Below the pieces are notes generated by a model. The model saw only the letters and a program-made list of their open reading frames with translations, did no database searches and was not told the DNA's origin. From positions 1 to 48,179 of the IMG/VR virus record IMGVR_UViG_3300045120_000249: a DNA stretch of 48,179 nt, one strand, 5' to 3'. Every line of letters begins with the position of its first letter. Positions within the stretch are counted from its first letter, which is position 1. The translations under genes were made by a program, and so were the position numbers. Below are positions 12,734 through 42,416 of this stretch, piece after piece. The DNA comes from a virus.

Positions 12734-12785
12734 TGGCTGGGGGAGCTGGATTCGAACCAACATCAGCGGAGTCAGAGTCCGCTGT
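12734..12785 (-). other. attP core: 3' part of a tRNA-Gln(CUG) gene
   Basis: On the - strand this segment reads as the last ~50 bases of a bacterial tRNA-Gln. It has an anticodon arm with stem GCGGA/TCCGC and loop CTCTGAC (anticodon CUG), a T-arm GTTGG-TTCGAAT-CCAGC, then acceptor strand, discriminator G and CCA. The D-arm and 5' acceptor strand are missing, so it is not a working tRNA. Phages that integrate into tRNA genes carry just this piece to restore the gene on integration. The integrase is encoded 0.85 kb away. Confidence 0.85.
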
Positions 12786-12822
12786 TCGAGTCAACAAAAT
12801 CAAAGACTTAGCTAAATTTGAG

Positions 12823-12895: not shown

Positions 12896-13390
12896 TTAGG
12901 CTGCCAATTTTTGGCCGATCCGCACGACGCGGTTAAAGAGCGGTCGCTCGGCGAGAATTGCGGCGGCCTCTGCATCTTCCGCAGCCTCGCGCGTCGGATA
13001 GTGATCCACGGTGATTACTGCGACTTCATCGACCCATGTCGACCGCTTGTTATGTTCGAGCCACCGGGTAGGCGTCGACCTCGTCACCCCCACGTACAGC
13101 AACTTTCCGTCAAAGCCATAGTGTCGATAAAGGTGCGTCAGGTCTGGATTTTTGGCCCGGTCTAACTGCAAACGATTGCCGACCTTGGGCGCTCCCGGTG
13201 GCGCTTTGTGCTCCGCCCGGTGAGATTTGGGCGTTGCTTTGGCGTGCGCCAGTTCCTGGTCGAATTCAGGCGTGCCAAATGCGGCCCGAATGCGTGGGCC
13301 GCCACGCCAGGCATAATAATAGACTTTGCCGTGCATCCTGACTTCGTGGACGCCCTTCGGTCTTTTAAATTGTTGCCGTTCACAGGTCAT
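12896..13390 (-). CDS. GIY-YIG nuclease with an integrase-like N-terminal domain
   Basis: A 164-residue protein; its ATG overlaps the end of the preceding gene. Residues about 85-160 form a GIY-YIG fold: LYRHYGFDGKLLYVGVT carries the two tyrosines and the glycine, the Arg is in TRWLEHN, and the metal-binding Glu fits EAAAILAERPLFN. Residues about 12-50 (KGVHEVRMHGKVYYYAWRGG, PRI, GTPEFDQEL) match the N-terminus of the integrase at 14734 (GVH, YAYAWRGGPRV, GTAAFDAEV). It lies between integrase and attP. The shared domain probably binds DNA; the role of the nuclease is unknown. Confidence 0.8.
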   Translation of the reverse strand: MTCERQQFKRPKGVHEVRMHGKVYYYAWRGGPRIRAAFGTPEFDQELAHAKATPKSHRAEHKAPPGAPKVGNRLQLDRAKNPDLTHLYRHYGFDGKLLYVGVTRSTPTRWLEHNKRSTWVDEVAVITVDHYPTREAAEDAEAAAILAERPLFNRVVRIGQKLAA

Positions 13391-13631
13391 CGGCGAGCAT
13401 TTCGACGTGGCGGGCGTACTGGGTTACTTCGCCGGCCACCCAGCCGCTGGTGAACATGTTGCCGTTCATCCAATCAGCATGTAGGCGCATCAGCTTGGCG
13501 AGGGCTCTGAACTGCGCCTTGGTGGTCTTGGCGTTCTGGTACTTGGCGATCAACACCTTGCGCTTGGCGTCGTGAGCGGCGAACGACGCTTTGGCCTTAA
13601 CCTTGATCTCGTCCATCGGGTCTTCGGTCAT
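13380..13631 (-). CDS. Small protein of the integrase operon
   Basis: An 83-residue protein whose ATG overlaps the integrase stop (ATGA) and whose end overlaps the GIY-YIG start. It is helical and charged (KVKAKASFAAHDAKRKVLIAKY, then RALAKLMRLHADWMNG). No known motif. Tight overlap on both sides makes it part of the integration module; an accessory DNA-binding or recombination-directionality role is possible but unsupported. Confidence 0.6.
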   Translation of the reverse strand: MTEDPMDEIKVKAKASFAAHDAKRKVLIAKYQNAKTTKAQFRALAKLMRLHADWMNGNMFTSGWVAGEVTQYARHVEMLADDL

Positions 13632-14734
13632 TTCATTCTCCTTACAGGCAGGGTGACCACCTTTTCGACGTGCTTTTCGCCTGTCTCGAACGCTTCAAAC
13701 TTGGCGATCGCCGAGCGCGCGACGCTCAAGTCGCGGAGCACGTAACCGTCGAGCGACGAGCGCGCCGTGCCGCTCTCCAAACCATGCCCGGTGATGCTGG
13801 CGATTTCGATCGTGGTGCAGCCGGCGCGGCCCATGCGTGAGGCTCCGGTGCCGCGCAGGTCGTGGAAGGTGACCCCTCCACTGCGAGAATTCGCGACGCC
13901 GGCCTTGTGGCAAGTCTTCGCCCACATGACCCGGAAGCCGTCCTCCGACCACGGGATGCCAGACTGGTTGACGAGCATAATTGGGCTCTTGCGCGGCGTC
14001 GCGTCGAGCCGCTCTTTAAGCGGCCCCGCCACTGGCACCGTGACCTGGGCTCCGGTCTTGTTCTGGGTGAGCTTGATGACGTCACCGTCGTAGGCGCTCC
14101 AGGGAAGCTCCAGGAGGTCACCCTGACGCTGCAGGGTCCAGAACCCCAGCTCGAGCGCGAGGCCAATCTCGGGGCTCGCGTGGGCGCGGAAAGCGGCCAT
14201 CTGGGCGTCGGTCCAAACCTTGTCGCGGCGGTCGGTGGTGTAGAGCTTCTCGACGCCCTGATCGCGGCAAGGATTGGCCGGCAGCTTGCCGCGCTTCTTG
14301 CCCCAGTTCAGGACGATGTTGAAGAACACATAGGCATAGTCAGCCTGCCGCTTCGAGCGCTTGGCGAGGCCGTCGCGCCAGTCGAGGATCTCACCCCGGA
14401 CTTGGTCGGGCGTGTCCGCGAGCGCCGCGCCGGGGAGGTCGCCAAATGTCTCGACGACAACCTTGGCAAGCTTTCGGTAGTCCTCCTGCGTGCGGGGAGC
14501 CCGTCGCAGGAAGTCTTCGCTGTCGAGGTATTTGTCGACCGTCTCGCCGATCGTGGCAAAGCGCGAAGCAGCCGCCTGGGGCGCGTGGGCGGCGGGGGTG
14601 CGGACCTCCCGGAGCCGTTTGACCTCGGCGTCGAACGCCGCCGTCCCTTGCGGGGCGTTGACGCGGGGGCCGCCCCGCCAAGCGTAGGCATATTTTCCGA
14701 CGTAGTGGACGCCATCTCTATTTCGACTTCTCAC
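13628..14734 (-). CDS. int: Tyrosine site-specific integrase
   Basis: A 368-residue protein. I choose the GTG at 14734 because a GGAAGG ribosome site precedes it and residues further upstream are a shadow of the 75-residue gene. Domains: an N-terminal arm-type region (1-45), a SAM-like core-binding domain (about 60-155) and the catalytic domain. Catalytic residues are visible as Arg203 (LQRQGDLLEL), His291 and Arg294 (HDLRGTG), His317 (TGHGLE) and Tyr331 (DGYVLRD). It integrates the phage at a host tRNA-Gln gene, as judged from the attP at 12734. Confidence 0.92.
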   Translation of the reverse strand: MRSRNRDGVHYVGKYAYAWRGGPRVNAPQGTAAFDAEVKRLREVRTPAAHAPQAAASRFATIGETVDKYLDSEDFLRRAPRTQEDYRKLAKVVVETFGDLPGAALADTPDQVRGEILDWRDGLAKRSKRQADYAYVFFNIVLNWGKKRGKLPANPCRDQGVEKLYTTDRRDKVWTDAQMAAFRAHASPEIGLALELGFWTLQRQGDLLELPWSAYDGDVIKLTQNKTGAQVTVPVAGPLKERLDATPRKSPIMLVNQSGIPWSEDGFRVMWAKTCHKAGVANSRSGGVTFHDLRGTGASRMGRAGCTTIEIASITGHGLESGTARSSLDGYVLRDLSVARSAIAKFEAFETGEKHVEKVVTLPVRRMK

Positions 14735-14945
14735 GCTGTTTCGCCTTCCAAATCTCGTAGTCCGACGGCCCGGGGGGAACAGCGGACTTTTCCGTAAGAG
14801 TTGGAATATGGCCAACGGAGTTGGTTATTACAATGCTCCCTTCGGCATTAATTTCGACCTGGGAAACCTCGAGCCCGGCGGCCCTGGCGGCCCGCAGGGC
14901 GCGGGTCACATCGACCTGGCGGAACCTGGCAGGGCGAGGGCTCAT
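14718..14945 (-). CDS. Small integrase-linked DNA-binding-like protein (possible excisionase)
   Basis: A 75-residue basic protein (RFRQVDVTRALRAARAAGLE, then VEINAEGSIVI) of a type often found next to alphaproteobacterial prophage integrases: a helix followed by two strands. Its last 17 bases overlap the integrase start, so the two are translated together. Excisionase is a possible role, but the classical winged-helix signature is not evident. It starts one base from the stop of the previous membrane gene. Confidence 0.55.
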   Translation of the reverse strand: MSPRPARFRQVDVTRALRAARAAGLEVSQVEINAEGSIVITNSVGHIPTLTEKSAVPPGPSDYEIWKAKQREKSK

Positions 14946-15384: not shown

Positions 15385-15635
15385 GGCTTGTCCTTGAGGG
15401 CGGCGCGAGCGCGGTCAACAAGGTCCATGGCGTTGTCGAAGTCTATCTGTTGCGCTGGATGGATCGTCCCGTCGTTCAACTCGTATCTATGCCTGAATTC
15501 GGCCTCCAGATCGTCGGCGCATTCCTTCAGCAACTCTCCCCGCTCGCGCCACGAGGCGACCACAGCATTGATCTCCACAAGCGTCAGCGGAAGACCCTCT
15601 TTGTGCCTTGCGATAATGTCCTCAAGCGGGAGCAT
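15381..15635 (-). CDS. Hypothetical acidic protein
   Basis: An 84-residue protein when started at the ATG at 15635, which has a CAGGGG ribosome site and overlaps the HNH gene by 14 bases. An ATG at 15695 in the same frame would overlap further and is less likely. Sequence is helical (EINAVVASWRERGELLKECA, then DFDNAMDLVDRARAAL). It resembles short accessory proteins of phage early operons, without a known role. Confidence 0.5.
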   Translation of the reverse strand: MLPLEDIIARHKEGLPLTLVEINAVVASWRERGELLKECADDLEAEFRHRYELNDGTIHPAQQIDFDNAMDLVDRARAALKDKP

Positions 15636-16245
15636 GTGCGCCCCTGTCTTTCCAATGCACATCTGCGTGGCATGAATGGCAAAGCCATCTGACATCTAGC
15701 GGGCGCGTGTAGTCGTCGTGATGGCCCTGAATTGCCCTTGCGCCATGTCTGGGGCGGACGCCGGAACTGCCGCATTGCGAACAAAACTGTGGGACGGCAA
15801 TTTCGCCGCGAACTATCGCGTCCCTAATGAGGCGCTTTGCCTTAGCCTTCTCAGGATATTTGGCAGCGTAATTGGCGGCGGCGCGTCTCACTCTGGCGGC
15901 CTCGGCCGGAGAGGCCGAAGACACCTTCCTCCGCGCCGACTTACGTTTCCGGTAGTCGTCTTGGGTGGCTCGGAAGTATGTTAGGCGACATTCCTTGCAT
16001 TGCGGAGATGTTCCAAACGTCCCCGCAGCCTGACGGTAGAACGCGGTGAGAGGTTTCGGTACACCGCATCCAGCGCATTGCTTATTCGTCGCACCCTTGC
16101 TCAATCTACCCTGACGTGCGTCGCAAGCCAGATCGAAGATGCGTCGGCATGGACCGCACCTTGCGGGCCTTCGCTTCGGCTCAAAGAGCACCCCGCAATC
16201 TACGCACGGCTTCATAGAGTTTTCCTCGACGCTCGGCTCGGTCAT
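15622..16245 (-). CDS. HNH endonuclease with zinc-finger N-terminus
   Basis: A 207-residue protein. The N-terminus has several CxxC pairs (CVDCGVLF, CGPCRRIF, CAGCG, CKECR), suggesting two treble-clef zinc sites. The C-terminal region has CSQCG, then HHDDYTRPLDVRWLCHSCHADVH, the His-His and CxxCH core of phage HNH nucleases. Such proteins may be homing nucleases or DNA-processing enzymes. It is the second HNH protein of this operon (the other at 19077) and overlaps both neighbours. Confidence 0.75.
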   Translation of the reverse strand: MTEPSVEENSMKPCVDCGVLFEPKRRPARCGPCRRIFDLACDARQGRLSKGATNKQCAGCGVPKPLTAFYRQAAGTFGTSPQCKECRLTYFRATQDDYRKRKSARRKVSSASPAEAARVRRAAANYAAKYPEKAKAKRLIRDAIVRGEIAVPQFCSQCGSSGVRPRHGARAIQGHHDDYTRPLDVRWLCHSCHADVHWKDRGAHAPA

Positions 16246-16751: not shown

Positions 16752-16792
16752 GGGGAGGGAGCGGGGCTATGCGGTAGTCTCATTCCCTCCCC
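16752..16792 (-). terminator. Hairpin behind the PEP-CTERM gene ending at 16815
   Basis: GGGGAGGGA (16752-16760) pairs with TCCCTCCCC (16784-16792), a 9-bp stem. There is no T-run after it on the - strand, so it may be a partial terminator or an RNA-stabilising 3' structure. Nearly the same arms (GGGGAGGGC/GCCCTCCCC) follow the other PEP-CTERM gene at 17664-17698. Confidence 0.5.
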
Positions 16793-16814
16793 CTATTCGC
16801 CGTCGAGGAGACGC

Positions 16815-17634
16815 TCAGACGGCGAAACGCGGTACGCGACGCTTACGCCAACCAAGGACGCCGATGAGGCTGAAGCCAGCCAACATCATCGCCCAAGTCG
16901 AGGGCTCGGGAACCGCTGGCGAGTTGAACGGCGTGACCAGAAAGCGACGAGGATTGCGCCGTCGAGACCAGTTCCAGCGAGGTGGTGTGGCCGTGGGTCA
17001 CCTGTTCGACCATGAACGCGGTGATGATCGAGCCCGCACCGACGCCAGCGAAGCTATTCGCGCCAACCATGAAGTTGCCGCCACTGAGGGTGAACGAATT
17101 GTCTAGCACGGTGGTCTGACCGGCCTGCGTGCCCGTGGTGATGTTGCCGACCCTGACCAGATACACGCTGTAGTCGAGCCCATCGAAGGTCGGATCTTCC
17201 AGCAACGTCGCGCCTGAGTAGGCTGAGAACGGATTGGGCGGCGATGCGCTTAAGCCGCCGAGGGCCGCCTTGACGTTCGCCTGTGCGACCAGGTCAGTGC
17301 CGGAAGCAAAGAAGCCTTCGGGAATGAGACTGCCGATGCCGGCGATCGGGTTACCGTTGAGGGTTCCCGAGAGCGTCGGCAGGACGGTTTCGTTCTCGTT
17401 GTCGGGGACGAGGAGCGCGAACCACAGCGTCCCGGTTTGGGGGGCCGGCGAGGACGAGACGCCAAAGCCGGAAAGGCCGCTACCGCCCACCGTCCCGATG
17501 GTCACTCCGCCGAATGAACTGCACCCGGTCGAGTAGCACATGTGTAGCGGGTCAAGCAGCGGATCGGTGGCCACTTGTGCATAGGCGGGGGCGGCAAGCG
17601 CACATAACGACGCCGCCAAGAGAAGCCTTTTCAT
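16815..17634 (-). pseudogene. Secreted PEP-CTERM-type protein with a frameshifted sorting tail
   Basis: ATG at 17634 with an AAAGGAA ribosome site. The N-terminus is a clear signal peptide (MKRLLLAASLCALAAPAYAQ, cut after AYA), followed by a beta-rich secreted domain. In the uninterrupted frame the protein runs to 16843 and ends in an unrelated tail. In the frame one base over, starting near 16940, the DNA encodes TPFNSPAVPEPSTWAMM, a hydrophobic helix, WRKRR and PRFAV, with stop at 16815. That is a PEP-CTERM sorting signal. One extra base near 16940-16960 would explain it. It may be a mutation, a sequence error or a translational shift. Confidence 0.7.
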
Positions 17635-17663
17635 TTTTATTGTTCCTTTGTTGTGAAATGTCG

Positions 17664-17698
17664 GGGGAGGGCACGCGACAGTCGTTCCGGCCCTCCCC
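17664..17698 (-). terminator. Hairpin between the two PEP-CTERM genes
   Basis: GGGGAGGGC (17664-17672) pairs with GCCCTCCCC (17690-17698), a perfect 9-bp stem with a 17-base loop. It lies between the stop at 17724 and the start at 17634. No T-run follows on the - strand. It matches the hairpin at 16752-16792, which suggests that gene plus hairpin was duplicated as a unit. Confidence 0.5.
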
Positions 17699-17723
17699 TT
17701 TCATTCGCTATCTTCGAGGGGTC

Positions 17724-18437
17724 TCAGACAGCGAACCTCGGGGTCTTGATACGCTTACGCAGACCCAAGAGGCCTAAAAGAGCGAACCCGCCGCCCATCA
17801 TCACCCACGTCGACGGCTCTGGAACCGCATTGACCGCGTTCATCGAGATACTTTGCACACCGACAAACGCATGCGGCTGGAGGGTCAGTTGCAGGCCTTC
17901 AGCCATCCCGTAGAGGCCGGTCACGGAGAACGGCACGTCCGGGCTATTAGCCGAGAAACTAAACGGCCCAGTCAGCAGCCCGCTGTCGAACGTCCCGCCG
18001 ATCTGGGTGCCGATCACCGGACCCGTGTTCACGCCGTTCAGCGCGTTGGTCGTGGACACGAAGAACTGCCCGGTCAGCTCTGCCTGTCCCGTGCCGATGA
18101 GGATCGTCGCCGACGCATTGAAGAAATTGTCGGGGCCGAGGAACCCGTTCGTCCCAGCAAGAATGTCCAGAGTCTGAACCGTCCCGGTGGTGTTGGTTAT
18201 GAACAGGTTGCTCTCGGTCATGCTGGGACCGGGCACGGTGTCCCGCGAAACGCCGCTGGTCGAGATTGTAATTCCGCCAAGGCTCGATCCGGAAATGACT
18301 GCCGAACCGGTGCCAGTGGCGGTCACTGCGCCGCCGGGGTTGGCGTTGTTCCATAGCGTTAGCGCCGAGTCGGCGGCCATCGCTGGGCTCATCCCGACAG
18401 CCCCCAGCAAAGCCGTTGTCAAAAGAAGTCTTCTCAT
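17724..18437 (-). CDS. Secreted PEP-CTERM surface protein
   Basis: A 237-residue protein. The ATG at 18437 is chosen because AAAGGGTGA precedes it and a signal peptide follows at once (MRRLLLTTALLGAVGMSPAMA). The middle is a beta-rich, Thr/Asn/Ser/Gly-rich domain. The last 33 residues are a PEP-CTERM signal: VPEPSTW, a hydrophobic helix (VMMGGGFALLGLLGL), then RKR. In bacteria this tail is processed by exosortase, placing the protein in the envelope or the exopolysaccharide. No exosortase gene is in the window, so the host would have to supply it. Probably a lysogenic conversion protein. Confidence 0.8.
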   Translation of the reverse strand: MRRLLLTTALLGAVGMSPAMAADSALTLWNNANPGGAVTATGTGSAVISGSSLGGITISTSGVSRDTVPGPSMTESNLFITNTTGTVQTLDILAGTNGFLGPDNFFNASATILIGTGQAELTGQFFVSTTNALNGVNTGPVIGTQIGGTFDSGLLTGPFSFSANSPDVPFSVTGLYGMAEGLQLTLQPHAFVGVQSISMNAVNAVPEPSTWVMMGGGFALLGLLGLRKRIKTPRFAV

Positions 18438-19080: not shown

Positions 19081-19466
19081 CGGAACCGCCTCATTATTTC
19101 CGGCATGCCCGCAGCGACCCGCAGCTGCGGTTTCTCTTTCTTCTTCGGCCCTGCGATCTCCGCCTTGCCGGGACGCTCGAGGCCAGCATGCCTGGCTGCG
19201 ACGCTCCGCACTTTGGCGCGCACTGAAGCTTCGTCGGATGTCTTGGCCCTATGCTCGTCGCTGAGGATCCACTGCAGATTGACTTCCGCATGCATTCCGC
19301 CATCGGCGATCGGAATCTTATGATCGAGATGCTTCTCGTTGCCGGGCACGAACTTGTGGCCGGTAATGGCGCACCGGCCGCCCTGCTTCTGGAGGATGCG
19401 CAGTTGAACCTGCAACGGGATTTTTGCGTCGTCGGTCGTGCCGACCCAGGGCGGGATCTTTCTCAT
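19077..19466 (-). CDS. HNH endonuclease
   Basis: A 129-residue protein with the HNH core GRCAITGHKF, then HLDHKIPIADGG and NLQWILSDEHRAKT, giving the Asp-His pair, the Asn and the final His. One CxxC of the common structural zinc site is absent. Its start overlaps the TGT-like gene (ATGA) and its stop overlaps the secreted-protein gene. Phage HNH enzymes of this size act in packaging or homing. TerL is far away, so a homing or early role is more likely. Confidence 0.75.
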   Translation of the reverse strand: MRKIPPWVGTTDDAKIPLQVQLRILQKQGGRCAITGHKFVPGNEKHLDHKIPIADGGMHAEVNLQWILSDEHRAKTSDEASVRAKVRSVAARHAGLERPGKAEIAGPKKKEKPQLRVAAGMPEIMRRFR

Positions 19467-20062
19467 GCCGCCTCCGGCAGCATTGGCGCGCGGTCTAAAT
19501 CATCCAACCATGCCAACAGCCTTGGTGTATTTGTGTTCGGGCCAAATCTCAGAAACGTCCCGTCTGCGGTATCGCAGCCGATCGCCGTAGCGGCGCGCAA
19601 CCTATCCAGCGAATTGACCCGCCCCATGTGGACGCTCTTTCCGCGCCTCTTGGCCGCATGGGCAGCCTCTCGACCGGCGCGGAACTTGAAGGCGGTCGAG
19701 CCTCCAATAAAAAGCACATCCAGCTCATCCCAAGGGGTCGACTGATCCTCCCATCCATCCTGGGCACAGAAGGCGGCCCGATAGCCCGCGTCACGAATGC
19801 GCCGCAGCATTGGGCCTGACCGCTTAATCGTCGCCACATGATTCCCAACGATGTCAGGAGCGGGGGCGAACAAAGCTGCGCGAGGGAGGCCGTCGAGAAA
19901 CCGCAAATAGTGGTCGTCCGAATACCCTCTCGGATTGCTGAAGCAACCATTGTCGGCCGCGAACGCGCACCCCTCCGGGGCGGCCTGACGAAGGTCCGGG
20001 GTAATCAAGAAGCCGAGCCGCGGATGCCGCATCGCGCCGATATGACCGCTGAGATAGATCAT
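19463..20062 (-). CDS. TGT-superfamily transglycosylase (DpdA-like), candidate 7-deazaguanine DNA modification enzyme
   Basis: A 199-residue protein with the signature order of tRNA-guanine transglycosylases in short form. AADNGCFS (Asp37) corresponds to the DSGGF active-site motif; LFIGGS (118-122) to the IGG loop; VHMGRVNSLDRLRAA (144-158) with IGCDTADGT (161-169) to the MGVG...GxDMFD motif, putting Asp167 at the nucleophile position. The bacterial TGT zinc cysteines are absent, as in phage DpdA-type proteins. The gene overlaps a VUT/YhhQ transporter for 7-deazaguanine precursors. Base exchange in phage DNA is the likely reaction; tRNA as a substrate cannot be excluded. Confidence 0.7.
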   Translation of the reverse strand: MIYLSGHIGAMRHPRLGFLITPDLRQAAPEGCAFAADNGCFSNPRGYSDDHYLRFLDGLPRAALFAPAPDIVGNHVATIKRSGPMLRRIRDAGYRAAFCAQDGWEDQSTPWDELDVLFIGGSTAFKFRAGREAAHAAKRRGKSVHMGRVNSLDRLRAATAIGCDTADGTFLRFGPNTNTPRLLAWLDDLDRAPMLPEAA

Positions 20063-20526
20063 GCGGTCACCCGCCGCGCCGAGAGGCCGCCCCAGACGAC
20101 GAGCGCCGCAACGAGCTTGCTGGCGATTTGGGCGCCTAGCGCCAGCGGCGAAAGCGCCCCGATGATGGAAAGGAAAACGACGCTATCTGCAGGCGCGCTC
20201 AAACCGCAACTCAGCAGTACCCGATCCGCCAATGGGCGCTTGGTGACAGTGAACACAAGCCAATCGACGCTTTCGGACACAGCAAACGCCGCGGCGCTTG
20301 CCAGTGCGACAAACGGCGACGCAAGTAGGTAGGAAAGCGCAAGGCCGACCGCCATCGGAACGACGACCCAATGGCCAATTGCGCGCTGACAGAAGTCTCG
20401 GGTGACGAAGATTGATCCGACCGCGATCGACCATAGCCAATTCAAGTCTGGTCGCCATGCAAAAGCGACATTGATGGCGAGGACGGAGAGGACATAAATG
20501 AGTGGCCAGAATAGTTTTTGCTTCAT
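20059..20526 (-). CDS. VUT/YhhQ-family transporter (queuosine precursor type)
   Basis: A 155-residue membrane protein, ATG at 20526 overlapping the NinB stop. About five hydrophobic spans. It carries the VUT_1 signatures: FVTRDFCQRAIGHW (40-53), then SESVDWLVFTVTKRPLADR (84-102) and SAPADSVVF (110-118). Bacterial YhhQ imports preQ0/preQ1. The phage copy is shorter than host YhhQ (about 220 residues), as VUT proteins of phages often are. Its stop overlaps the TGT-like start, so both are made together. Import of a deazaguanine base for the next gene's enzyme is the natural reading. Confidence 0.8.
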   Translation of the reverse strand: MKQKLFWPLIYVLSVLAINVAFAWRPDLNWLWSIAVGSIFVTRDFCQRAIGHWVVVPMAVGLALSYLLASPFVALASAAAFAVSESVDWLVFTVTKRPLADRVLLSCGLSAPADSVVFLSIIGALSPLALGAQIASKLVAALVVWGGLSARRVTA

Positions 20527-20915
20527 GCGGCCGCCTCGCTGTCCCGGAATGTGACGCCGTGCTCGGCCGCGAAGGCCGCGATCAGATCCAGCAGCAGGCC
20601 CATTTCCTCCTTCGACATGTCGGAGGTCCGCATGCCGAGAGGGACGTAGGTCCCCGGGTCTATCCCTGGCACGACGCGCGCCTTGCGCAGCGACGCGCTG
20701 AAGACATCTTTCCAATCCTCGGCGCTGAGCTTCTGCCCGTACCAGTCGACCTGCTGGGCGATTTCCGTCAGTCGCGCCCAGAGCAGGGAATTCTGGTCGA
20801 GGGTTCTGCGCGGGGCCTTGAACTCAATGCGGGTTCCTGCCGGGGCGGAGGCGACCCAGTTGACCGCCTTTGCGCGATCAGCATCGCGACGAAGGACCAG
20901 GAGGGCGCGGGTCAT
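20523..20915 (-). CDS. ninB: NinB-family recombination protein
   Basis: A 130-residue protein from the ATG at 20915. It shows the lambda NinB (Orf) pattern: RTLDQNSLLWARLTEIAQQV, WYGQKLSAEDWKDVF, LGMRTSDMSKEEMGLLLDLI. NinB proteins bind single-stranded DNA and assist recombination mediators. It sits in one operon with ERF and YqaJ genes, so the phage has its own recombination set. Both ends overlap neighbours by four bases. Confidence 0.8.
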   Translation of the reverse strand: MTRALLVLRRDADRAKAVNWVASAPAGTRIEFKAPRRTLDQNSLLWARLTEIAQQVDWYGQKLSAEDWKDVFSASLRKARVVPGIDPGTYVPLGMRTSDMSKEEMGLLLDLIAAFAAEHGVTFRDSEAAA

Positions 20916-21280
20916 GCGACGAACTCCGCCGGTGGCCGCGGGATTTCCCGACCGTCGTTCGGCCTCCACAAGTGCAGGCAATATGAGTGGATGCTGATGT
21001 GGTCTTTGGGCGGCAAATGCAATTGCATCGCCGTCTCATCGTCACGAAAAAACGTTCGCTTGACCAACTCCATTTCGCGCCAGTTGGGAGTGCGGTTGGG
21101 AAGGCTGATCGACACATGGTCCCAACCGCCGTCAGACGAGGCTATGCACTTGAGCGTCACGCCGGTCGCTGGCGATGGCGTCTCAAACACGCCGCAAGTT
21201 TCATCGCCAAACGAGCCGTAAAGCGCAAAGACATCGTCGGTGCGGACTCGGTAGCCATTCAGCGCGTCGAGGTTCTTCAC
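20912..21280 (-). CDS. DUF7694-type phage protein
   Basis: A 122-residue protein. The GTG at 21280 with GGAGG ahead is chosen over longer shadow starts. The segment WDHVSISLPNRTPNWREMELVK followed by FFRDDETAMQLHLPP and YCLHLWRP is a conserved pattern of small phage proteins found in recombination and replication regions. No catalytic motif is known. It overlaps both NinB and YqaJ genes. Confidence 0.6.
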   Translation of the reverse strand: MKNLDALNGYRVRTDDVFALYGSFGDETCGVFETPSPATGVTLKCIASSDGGWDHVSISLPNRTPNWREMELVKRTFFRDDETAMQLHLPPKDHISIHSYCLHLWRPNDGREIPRPPAEFVA

Positions 21281-21915
21281 GCCGCCTCCACCGGATAGCG
21301 CGCGTCGAGGGCCTTCAGCTTGTCCTCGAGTTCGGCGAGAAAGGCGCGGGCTTCGTCTTCCATGCTGGCGATGATGGCCTCGTCGCGCGTCACCCGTTTG
21401 ACGAAGAACTGCAGGCGGGGTTCGCGAAACCGTGGATCGACGCTGCAGAAATCCCACCACGCGCGCCCTGTGCACGCCATCGACCAATGGATTTGTGGCA
21501 GATGCTCCTCGGGGACGGCATCGTTGAGCAGCGTCTTCAAATGCGTTGCGCTGGTGGGTGCCTTGATCTCGACGCCGCCGTCATCGCCTACCAGCGCATC
21601 TGGCGACGCGTGAGCGTTAGGAATCGTCGGGTGCGGAACGAGGCCGACCTCGACCACCGGAAGATTGGTGAGGAAGCCATAGGTCGTCCGCGCCTCGGCT
21701 TCGTGATCGACGCCCCACTGCCTGGCGTTGACCTGCCTCGCAGGGATGCCGGTGAGCCTCTCAGCTGCGATCTCGTACATGAGATCCTCGGCGATCTTGG
21801 CCCGCTCGCCCTTCTTGAGGCGGGAGATAGCGTCGCGGATCTTTGACGCCCCGAGCGAGCCAGCCCGTCTAAGCAGCCATTCCGGGGAGCGCTGGACAAG
21901 CTCGGCGTCGTTCAT
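21277..21915 (-). CDS. YqaJ-type (lambda-exonuclease family) recombination nuclease
   Basis: A 212-residue protein. QRSPEWLLRRAGSLGAS near the start is the conserved first motif. ASPDALVGDDGGVEIKAP (about 102-119) has the Asp and Glu-x-Lys metal site of the PD-(D/E)XK fold, and HLPQIHWSMACTG gives the usual Gln helix. It digests the 5' strand at double-strand ends to make substrate for the annealing protein encoded just upstream. The length suits phage YqaJ proteins. Confidence 0.87.
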   Translation of the reverse strand: MNDAELVQRSPEWLLRRAGSLGASKIRDAISRLKKGERAKIAEDLMYEIAAERLTGIPARQVNARQWGVDHEAEARTTYGFLTNLPVVEVGLVPHPTIPNAHASPDALVGDDGGVEIKAPTSATHLKTLLNDAVPEEHLPQIHWSMACTGRAWWDFCSVDPRFREPRLQFFVKRVTRDEAIIASMEDEARAFLAELEDKLKALDARYPVEAA

Positions 21916-22637
21916 GGCGGCGCTATCCCCATGCGGCGCTTCTTCTCGTTGAGCAGGACGAGAGCCCGCTGATAGTGCTTGACGCTCATGTCGCTGAAGG
22001 TGCTCACGCCCAGCGTGTCGAAGAAGATTTCGAGATTGCTCTTGGTTTCGGTGAGGAGTTCCTGGACCTGGGCGAGCTGGCGGGTGTCGATCGGGATGTC
22101 GTCTTCGTCGTCCTCCTTGCCTTTGCCGGAAGCCGCGTTGCCGTCGTCGTCGTCATTTTCGCCAGCGATGCCGGTCAGCGCGAACAACGTGTAGCGGCGA
22201 GCGTAGGTGAGGGCCGAGCCGATCACCTGGGGTGGAGAAGGAAGCTTAACCACTGGCCATTCAGAGCCGATCCACTGCCCGGAGGCATGGGCGAGCGCAG
22301 TGCGAAGCATCAGCACATCAGCCTCCATGCGGGTCGTTTGCACGATGGCGATGGCGTTGGCGCTCAATGCCGTACGGACGGCCTTCAGCCCGGCGGACAA
22401 GTCCGCGTACGACGATTTGAAATGAGGATTGGTCGCCGTCTTGCCAGGGTTCGCCATCTGCCCTTGCGCCTTGGCGAGCGCGGCGCTGATGGCGTCGATC
22501 CTGTCGGAGCATTGCTCAAAGCCCCGCGGCGGATCGGTCGCCCCGGCGGACGACAATTGCGGCAGTCCATCCGCCGGGACTAGCGGGGCCGGATCGGGGG
22601 AAACGGCCGTCGCGTCTGAATAATGGGGGTCAGTCAT
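21912..22637 (-). CDS. ERF-family single-strand annealing protein
   Basis: A 241-residue protein from the ATG at 22637. Residues about 45-95 (AALAKAQGQMANPGKTATNP, FKSSYADLSAGLKAVR) are the ERF signature, followed by SEWPVVKLPSPPQVIGSALTYARRY. An acidic linker (about 165-185) separates a helical C-terminal part. ERF proteins anneal complementary strands, partnering the YqaJ nuclease encoded next. Starts four bases inside the zinc protein gene. Confidence 0.88.
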   Translation of the reverse strand: MTDPHYSDATAVSPDPAPLVPADGLPQLSSAGATDPPRGFEQCSDRIDAISAALAKAQGQMANPGKTATNPHFKSSYADLSAGLKAVRTALSANAIAIVQTTRMEADVLMLRTALAHASGQWIGSEWPVVKLPSPPQVIGSALTYARRYTLFALTGIAGENDDDDGNAASGKGKEDDEDDIPIDTRQLAQVQELLTETKSNLEIFFDTLGVSTFSDMSVKHYQRALVLLNEKKRRMGIAPP

Positions 22638-22858
22638 TGAAGCGCCTCCAGGCAGTCGGCGCAGACAGGGCCGCCCATAGGGGTGAGGCTTTCGGCGTGC
22701 TCGCATCCGCAGATCTGGCAGTTGAGGCCTTCTCCGTCGCAGATCTCGCACTTGCCGAGGAAGATGAGCGCCTGGCGGTCGCGGCGCATGAGGACCGCGT
22801 CCCCATCGACGCAAAAATGGCTCAGGATCTCAGCGGTGGGGGGCGGGCGGCCGGTCAC
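22634..22858 (-). CDS. Small zinc-ribbon protein
   Basis: A 74-residue protein with cysteine pairs CEICDGEG, CQICGCEH and CADC, a plan like the DnaJ zinc-finger or two small zinc knuckles. It probably binds zinc; partner unknown. It lies between a 69-residue protein and ERF with four-base overlaps. Confidence 0.6.
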   Translation of the reverse strand: MTGRPPPTAEILSHFCVDGDAVLMRRDRQALIFLGKCEICDGEGLNCQICGCEHAESLTPMGGPVCADCLEALQ

Positions 22859-40575: not shown

Positions 40576-40857
40576 ATGAACAAAATTGATCCGCGTTCGC
40601 CGGGCAAGTCGACGGCGAATGATGACTTCTGCGACCCGCACGGCCACGGCGTCGGCAGCCCGTCGATGGGGGGCCACGTCGGCATGGGCCGCGACGATGG
40701 CGGAAGCTTCTCGAACAAGGGCTTCTCCCGCGGCGGCAGTTCCCCGGATGGCGATGAATATGTCGCCAAGTACCGCCCGAGTGGCGGTGGGGGCGGATCC
40801 TCGGACGAGATCCCCGAAGGCTCCGAGCTCAACGGGGATGGGACAGGCTACGCTTGA
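40576..40857 (+). CDS. Small Gly/Ser/Asp-rich protein
   Basis: A 93-residue low-complexity protein (AAAGGAGAG ribosome site before ATG 40576). Rich in Gly, Ser and Asp with SFSNKGFSRGGSSPDGDEYV. Its TGA overlaps the TTG start of TerL. In this position phages often encode a small terminase, but no helix-turn-helix or coiled coil can be seen. Function unknown. Confidence 0.45.
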   Translation: MNKIDPRSPGKSTANDDFCDPHGHGVGSPSMGGHVGMGRDDGGSFSNKGFSRGGSSPDGDEYVAKYRPSGGGGGSSDEIPEGSELNGDGTGYA

Positions 40858-42416
40858 ACGAGGCCGACAAGCGACGCCTGCTGCTGACGCGCAAGAAGGC
40901 GATCCTCGAATCGCGCAACGAGCTGGTCCCGTTCGCGCGCTACATGGCGCCGGACCCCGACGCCAGGGCCGACGCTGCCCGCTCGGCCTATGAGGTGGCG
41001 CGGCACCACCGCGTCATCGCCGCGGCGCTCGAGGAGGTTGAGGCGGGGCGCATCAAGCGCCTGATCATCTCCTGCCCCCCGCGGCACGGCAAGACGCGCT
41101 TGGCCTCGATGCTGTTCCCGGCGTGGTACCTCGGCCGCAATCCATCGAAGAGCGTTGTCTTCGCGACCTACAACGACAAATATGCCATCGACGTCGGCGG
41201 CACGGTCAAGACCATGCTGCAGTCGCCTCTCTACGCTCATGTCTTCCCCGACCTCAAGCTCGACTACGGCGGCGCATCGGCTGACCGGCTGCGGATCGCC
41301 GGCGGCGGCGACATGTTTTGCGTCGGGGTCGGGGGCACCCTCACCGGCCGCGGCGGCGACATCAACCTCCTCGACGACCCGATCAAGAACCGCCAAGAGG
41401 CGGACAGCCTCATCGTGCGCGACAAGCTTTGGTCCTGGTATCAGAACGTCTTCCGCACCCGCATGATGACCCAAGAGGCCAGGTTGGTGCTGATCGCCAC
41501 CCGCTGGAGCGAGGACGATCTGATCGGCCGCCATATCGACCCCTCGAACCCGCACTACAACGAGGAAGAGGCCCAGACCTGGAAGATCATCAACTTGCCC
41601 GCTCTGGCCGAGGAGGACGATCCGCTCGGGCGCGCGATCGACCAGCCGCTGTGGCCCGAGCGATTCGCCGAGCCCTTCCTGGCTGATCAGCGCCGATCGG
41701 ACCCCAGAGGCTTCACAGCCCTCTACCAGGGCAGGCCGACCCCAGCCGAGGGCTCATTCTTCAAGTCCGGCTTCCTGCGCACCTACAACAAGATGTCCGA
41801 CATGCCGCCGATGGAGGCGATGCGCTTCTACGGCGCGTCCGACTTCGCGGTGGCGACCAGGCAAGAAAACGACAAGAGCTGCCATATGGTCATCGGCGTC
41901 GACGAGAACGACAACATCTACGTCATGCCGGACATCGTCTGGTCGCGCCTGCCCGCGGATATGAGCATCAATGCGGTGATCCACCTGATGGCGAAATACA
42001 AGCCCATGTTCTGGTGGGGCGAGCGCGGCACGATCAGCAAGAGCATCGGCCCCTTCTTGCGTAAGCAAATGCAGGAGAAGCGGGTCTATTGCTCGATCGA
42101 CGAGATCACCCCGGTGGCCGACAAGTTGGCGAGGGCGCAGAGCATCAACGCCAGGATGTCCATGGGTAGGGTCTGGTTCCCCGGCTTCACCCGCTGGTGG
42201 GCGGACGCGCGCGAGCAGCTCCTCAAATTCCCGCACAGTGGTCAAGATGATCTAGTAGATGCTCTTTCCCTGGTCGGCCTCGGGCTCATGAAGCAGATCC
42301 CAGCCAAGGGCAAACCGAAGCCGAAGATGACCGAGCCGGCGATCTTTACTTACGGATGGGTGAAGGCTCAGACCAAGCGCGCCCAACGTGAAGCGCGATT
42401 AGCGGACGGATGGTGA
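40854..42416 (+). CDS. terL: Large terminase subunit
   Basis: A 520-residue protein, TTG start overlapping the previous stop. ATPase: Walker A-like CPPRHGKT (74-81), motif FATYNDKYA, Walker B-like NLLDDP (171-176), and LVLIATRWSEDDL as the coupling motif. Nuclease: FYGASDFAVA (about 322-331) and a terminal GQDDLVDALSL (about 462-472) supply the acidic residues of the RNase H-like site. It cuts concatemers and drives packaging into the procapsid at the portal. Confidence 0.92.
   Translation: MNEADKRRLLLTRKKAILESRNELVPFARYMAPDPDARADAARSAYEVARHHRVIAAALEEVEAGRIKRLIISCPPRHGKTRLASMLFPAWYLGRNPSKSVVFATYNDKYAIDVGGTVKTMLQSPLYAHVFPDLKLDYGGASADRLRIAGGGDMFCVGVGGTLTGRGGDINLLDDPIKNRQEADSLIVRDKLWSWYQNVFRTRMMTQEARLVLIATRWSEDDLIGRHIDPSNPHYNEEEAQTWKIINLPALAEEDDPLGRAIDQPLWPERFAEPFLADQRRSDPRGFTALYQGRPTPAEGSFFKSGFLRTYNKMSDMPPMEAMRFYGASDFAVATRQENDKSCHMVIGVDENDNIYVMPDIVWSRLPADMSINAVIHLMAKYKPMFWWGERGTISKSIGPFLRKQMQEKRVYCSIDEITPVADKLARAQSINARMSMGRVWFPGFTRWWADAREQLLKFPHSGQDDLVDALSLVGLGLMKQIPAKGKPKPKMTEPAIFTYGWVKAQTKRAQREARLADGW

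Follow-up and report, generated by a model that had tools for sequence, protein, structure and literature searches.

The enzyme EpsH/exosortase has been proposed to recognize and cleave the PEP-CTERM signal of its substrates on the outward-facing side of the inner membrane (Haft et al. 2006, PMC1569441). It is these substrates of Gram-negative bacteria (PMC1569441), including the NF035944 variant, that most resemble the two phage proteins considered here, as both groups combine a signal peptide, a diverse ectodomain, the PEP motif, a hydrophobic helix, and a basic cluster. In contrast to the bacterial proteins, however, those described here are encoded in operons by phages, have ectodomains missing from a set of 385 alphaproteobacterial genomes, and have no exosortase alongside. 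A second point of comparison is Ltp, the prophage-encoded surface exclusion lipoprotein of Streptococcus thermophilus phage TP-J34 (PMC3952083), which is likewise a small, exported surface protein of phage origin. Yet Ltp is a lipoprotein made in a Gram-positive host, whereas the tail found here would address a Gram-negative exosortase, and exclusion by the proteins described here is putative. As for viruses, hot-spring viral contigs carry TIGR03118 proteins with a putative exosortase-interaction C-terminus, which were listed as derived by HGT (PMC11003980), though these belong to another family and come from a paper without an analysis of sorting, context, or spread. Beyond that mention, our search of the literature on PEP-CTERM or exosortase together with phages, which took in few subscription papers, returned no study of phage-encoded exosortase substrates.

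The stretch of DNA that we analyzed (hereafter, the window), 48,179 bases long, is a virus record from IMG/VR and comes without a host genome. As claimed by the initial annotation, two tandem leftward genes (gene 1 and gene 2) are present, both on the minus strand, and these share a leftward operon with genes for Erf, an exonuclease, NinB, an HNH-type endonuclease, and a tyrosine integrase (Table 1).

Table 1. Positions in the window of the PEP-CTERM gene pair and of the features around it.
Feature	Position	Strand	Remarks
Erf-like annealing protein	21912–22814		Leftward operon
RecE-like exonuclease	21277–21915		Leftward operon
NinB	20523–20981		Leftward operon
Gene 1, phage PEP-CTERM protein, 237 aa	17724–18437	−	Signal peptide; beta-sandwich ectodomain, residues 24–202; PEP-CTERM tail
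Gene 1 PEP-CTERM tail, VPEPSTWVMMGGGFALLGLLGLRKRIKTPRFAV	17727–17825	−	PF07589, TIGR02595; VPEP.TW invariant in 21 sequences
RNA hairpin over gene 1 stop codon, then GGGGAGGG...CCCTCCCC	17688–17741	−	11-sequence consensus fold
Gene 2 as read in the record, 263 aa	16843–17634	−	Type B ectodomain behind a signal peptide; final portion out of frame
T run, CTTTCTGG	16941–16943	−	Has one base more than the relatives; shifts the frame between gene 2 ectodomain and tail
Gene 2 PEP-CTERM tail, AVPEPSTWAMMLAGFSLIGVLGWRKRRVPRFAV	16815–16913	−	+1 frame relative to gene 2; PF07589, NF035944
3' hairpin of the same type, after gene 2 tail	16779–16832	−	Consensus fold
Tiny single-TM ORF, MDHDPVGYVLATITSFLAALMITAVVVVMMHP, 32 aa	16636–16734	−	Near-identical ORF at the same place in G001
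Tiny single-TM ORF, 41 aa	16514–16639	−	Start overlaps stop of the 32-aa ORF; 40-aa counterpart in G001
HNH-type endonuclease	15622–16245		Leftward operon
Two-TM protein, 53 aa	14945–15106	−	Conserved near PEP-CTERM genes in several related phages; no Pfam match
Tyrosine integrase	13628–14815	−	PF00589 37.8 bits; phrog_1
tRNA-like 3' part, candidate attP core	12745–12795	−	Anticodon CTG by reading (Gln); RF00005 25.9 bits, gathering score 29

The N-terminus of the gene 1 product (MRRLLLTTALLGAVGMSPAMA) was judged by inspection to be a signal peptide and is kept in the relatives. At the other end of the protein, the tail scores 26.3 bits with PF07589 (cut-off 20.7; E 7e-6 in Pfam) and 23.3 bits with TIGR02595 (cut-off 16), while falling below the cut-offs of the PEPxxWA-CTERM subtype NF035944 (28.8 vs. 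35 bits) and the FxDxF family NF038126 (22.4 vs. 50 bits). Given this E-value, the VPEP.TW motif that is invariant in 21 of 21 gene 1 relatives, and the purifying selection among these relatives (dN/dS 0.12–0.22), the match of the gene 1 tail is, at the level of sequence, beyond chance. In the AlphaFold2 model of gene 1 (mean pLDDT of 78.7), the ectodomain is a predicted beta-sandwich, and a helix spans residues 210–229. A fold search with this model gave middling best matches (Z 8.5–9.5), mostly to carbohydrate-binding or adhesive domains, and included the K2-2 tailspike (Z 9.0), SGBP-B (Z 8.9), CBM61 (Z 8.8), and the Epf adhesin (Z 8.6). Because the beta-sandwich matches mainly glycan-binding and adhesive domains, a surface-coating, glycan-binding role is the most likely one for the modeled ectodomain, though matches at Z 8–9.5 may reflect just a common beta-sandwich. 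Neither Bd1399 nor any of the other fold matches (Z ≤9.5) was accepted as a family assignment of gene 1, and searching the PDB by sequence gave no match.

Gene 2 has a signal-peptide-like start (MKRLLLAASLCALAAPAYA), and its open frame ends at position 16843 in ...SGHAVQLASGSRALDLGDDVGWLQPHRRPWLA without a PEP-CTERM tail. In fact, the in-frame product of 263 residues, as sequenced, matches no PEP-CTERM family. Taken alone, the out-of-frame tail reaches 39.6 bits with PF07589 and 42.4 bits with NF035944, the latter above the cut-off of 35 bits, and outscores the tail of gene 1. Its E-value (5e-10 in Pfam) likewise places this match beyond chance, as far as sequence can tell. The initial annotation had given PEP-CTERM tails to both proteins, which is right for gene 1, whereas for gene 2 it had unwittingly joined two frames. 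The tails themselves are nonetheless recognized by PEP-CTERM models, a check that it had proposed, with PF07589 recovering both, TIGR02595 that of gene 1, and NF035944 that of gene 2. Homologs of gene 2 in two related phages are intact, with the tail in frame with the ectodomain (L010, about 85% identity; L096, 66% identity to L010), and their alignment with the window places a single extra base in the T run at 16941–16943. Between the window and L010, the body of gene 2 has a dN/dS of 0.10, and for the tail in its native frame, pN is 0.156 against a pS of 0.434. From these values, the frameshift appears to be either a recent event or an assembly error, and only gene 1 would be sorted from this record unless the shift in gene 2 is such an error or is bypassed. 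A structure model of gene 2 was discarded as unusable (pLDDT 44).

The tails of gene 1 and gene 2 form a 78-nt direct repeat with 73% identity. Moreover, the consensus of the associated hairpins (11 copies) has both-sided changes in 2 of its 13 pairs, i.e., some are compensatory. Two tiny single-TM ORFs lie 3' of the PEP-CTERM pair, and these are of one kind in phages with a type B gene 2 and of another in those with type C or D, where analogous ORFs of 31 and 49 residues come after gene 2 (L005, L008, L092, and L095 included). Sigma-70 promoters were not found, nor was an upstream sigma-54-type site by pattern, and the number of terminator-like sites (7 observed vs. 4.5 expected) was uninformative. 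Elsewhere on the minus strand, a Vut_1/queuosine-precursor-transporter-like protein (23.4 bits, under the cut-off of 27.2) adjoins a phrog_15826 protein of unknown function (20059–20586 and 19463–20062), and these neighbors possibly take part in 7-deazaguanine chemistry. A GIY-YIG endonuclease gene (12896–13390, minus strand; PF01541 23.8 bits, cut-off 22.6) has the tRNA-like fragment on one side and the integrase on the other. The terminase of the window (40854–42416) is closest to those of Microcystis phage Mae-Yong1326-1 (51%) and Rhizobium phage RHph_N65 (43%).

Relatives of gene 1 were found on 12 further IMG/VR contigs, at 49–91% identity. While one of these phages (G003) has structural genes in common with the window, others (G001/G002, G006, and G008) overlap with it in few proteins beyond the PEP-CTERM cassette, and the gene 1 cassette is evidently transferred between unrelated phage backbones. 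G006, a phage of 65 kb, encodes a DNA polymerase whose nearest isolated counterparts are in Rhizobium phages and Pseudomonas phages KPP25 and phiR18. G008, of 78 kb, likewise encodes a polymerase and also has a baseplate. Both are without a tyrosine integrase, the type of integrase searched for, and we call them apparently lytic on the strength of this and of their polymerases. The gene pair is present in these two apparently non-temperate lineages and, in the window, sits with Erf, exonuclease, and NinB genes, which gives no support to lysogen expression, suggested by the initial annotation, as a general rule. The slot after gene 1 is filled by a type B protein in the window, G001, and L096, by type C and D proteins in L005/L008 and L006/L007/L095/L097, and by another protein in L098, and no second protein was found adjoining gene 1 in L091 and L094. 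Types C and D align with each other, and the alignment of type B with them is confined to the last 91 columns; the view that no gene 2 type is related to another was therefore abandoned.

When IMG/VR was scanned by pattern for the VPEP[ST]TW tail, 115 stretches were returned, and the 80 loci examined contained 86 tails with a helix and basic residues, some of the contigs being from isolate genomes that may include host flanks. Clustering of the ectodomains brought out a second, large family (LQIEVFDNGTLID...), whose members lie on about 64 contigs (IMG/VR loci L294–L357) and show no similarity to gene 1 detectable at the sequence level. Among 16 aligned members, mean identity is 85% for the ectodomain and 37% for the variable tails. 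Within this family, 22 loci follow a DNA helicase gene, 14 precede a major head protein gene, and 13 of 64 have an endolysin homolog detected within the examined flank. Viewed across phages, PEP-CTERM genes occupy early operons, head modules, and lysis regions, and because their position varies, so probably does the timing of their expression. Two isolate-genome contigs of 40–43 kb (L208 and L230) have the same PEP-CTERM gene near an endolysin-like gene.

At E ≤1e-6, the gene 1 ectodomain was found in 0 of 385 alphaproteobacterial genomes, in a search where held-out phage members scored 1e-61 or better, and it was also absent from 50,697 isolated-phage records. Isolated phages, in turn, gave no match for gene 1, gene 2, two related families, or the tail. 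Whole-protein searches of 296 Sphingomonadales genomes and 296 genomes of the Bradyrhizobium erythrophlei family produced only chromosomal PEP-CTERM tails or partial matches ending there, and a tail-dominated pattern scan of genome contigs likewise retrieved chromosomal PEP-CTERM tails only. Some likeness to the FxDxF PEP-CTERM family (NF038126) is seen in the second-family member L164 (38.5 bits over residues 43–206) and in type D gene 2 (31.4 bits), and this likeness, all of it under the 50-bit cut-off, hints at a bacterial origin of the phage genes.

No exosortase (PF09721) is encoded in the window or in the 12 related phage records (13 in total), and an IMG/VR search for phage-encoded exosortases, using patterns of limited sensitivity, also found none. 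On the other hand, 10 of 12 genomes picked for their chromosomal PEP-CTERM tails do have an exosortase. Any sorting would therefore depend on the enzyme of the host, in keeping with the reliance put forward by the initial annotation, and we regard processing of the phage substrate by a host exosortase as highly probable. With up to 3 mismatches, the tRNA-Gln-like attP core was not found in 147 Sphingomonadales and 150 Hyphomicrobiales genomes, and a host assignment by flanks yielded no tRNA in the relatives examined.

On balance, we lean toward regarding the gene pair as a small cassette from which the phage makes surface proteins that depend on an exosortase and coat the infected cell. Here, the signal peptide would export each protein, the C-terminal helix would hold it in the inner membrane, and the host exosortase would recognize the PEP motif and then release the protein or transfer it to the cell surface or matrix, such that the substrate would come from the phage and the sorting enzyme from the host. 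Once at the surface, the most likely role of the beta-sandwich ectodomains would be to bind or mask glycans of the envelope, which would hinder the adsorption of further phages (superinfection exclusion), in lytic infection and in lysogens alike. We put forward this adsorption-blocking role only tentatively. A search with PADLOC gave no match, and some second-family relatives lie inside head modules, an unusual spot for a superinfection-exclusion gene. The main rival has the proteins modify the exopolysaccharide matrix or aggregation of the infected cell, for instance through binding to glycans of the matrix, which would aid the spread of progeny or bring a biofilm gain to the lysogen rather than block adsorption. 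This would fit with the need for both PEP-CTERM proteins and exopolysaccharide when Zoogloea forms flocs (Gao et al. 2018, as cited in PMC12642866), the ties between PEP-CTERM and exopolysaccharide loci (PMC1569441), the CBM-like fold matches of gene 1, and the several PEP-CTERM copies near endolysin genes. However, the low share of second-family loci with an endolysin homolog (just 13 of 64) and a cassette that shows no matrix gene make it a possible but rather doubtful reading.

Alternatively, the helix may be a mere membrane anchor, and the product a periplasm-facing inner-membrane protein that acts with the tiny TM proteins, e.g., in blocking DNA entry or tuning lysis. Although the tiny TM ORFs after the pair, one with an overlapping start and stop, and the location of some copies near endolysins would agree with this, the PEPxxW motif is 97–100% identical, as against 48% (gene 1 relatives) and 37% (second family) for the helix that follows. 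As the motif would be superfluous in a plain anchor, this points to a recognized signal and renders the anchor unlikely. The tails are also consensus-like and the ectodomain types vary among phages, as might be expected of an exosortase decoy, an abundant phage substrate that competes with the PEP-CTERM proteins of the host and strips them from the surface. Yet a decoy requires the tail alone, whereas the much higher identity of the second-family ectodomains than of their tails argues that selection keeps the ectodomain, and we consider this quite improbable. That the genes are host genes or neutral passengers in viral contigs might be thought from the PEP-CTERM genes common on alphaproteobacterial chromosomes and from the isolate-derived contigs of the pattern scan, which may hold host flanks. 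Such an origin is disfavored and hardly credible, as the ectodomain is lacking in all 385 alphaproteobacterial genomes, is carried by many phage contigs that also encode portal, terminase, and DNA polymerase, and belongs to a gene under purifying selection.

The spread of these genes over unrelated soil-type phages suggests that a host sorting machine is borrowed to alter the surface of the infected cell. Conceivably, though we say so with reserve, phages of exosortase-bearing soil bacteria, both temperate and apparently lytic, exchange their own classes of exosortase substrates as cassettes, and in this way recoat the cell and exclude competitors. The function of most PEP-CTERM proteins is poorly known, and the phage versions, with their conserved ectodomains, offer small testable cases that consist of one protein, one host exosortase, and one phenotype (adsorption or aggregation). 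If true, our reading would bring a Gram-negative sorting pathway into the scope of phage surface conversion and link phages to exopolysaccharide-rich soil bacteria.
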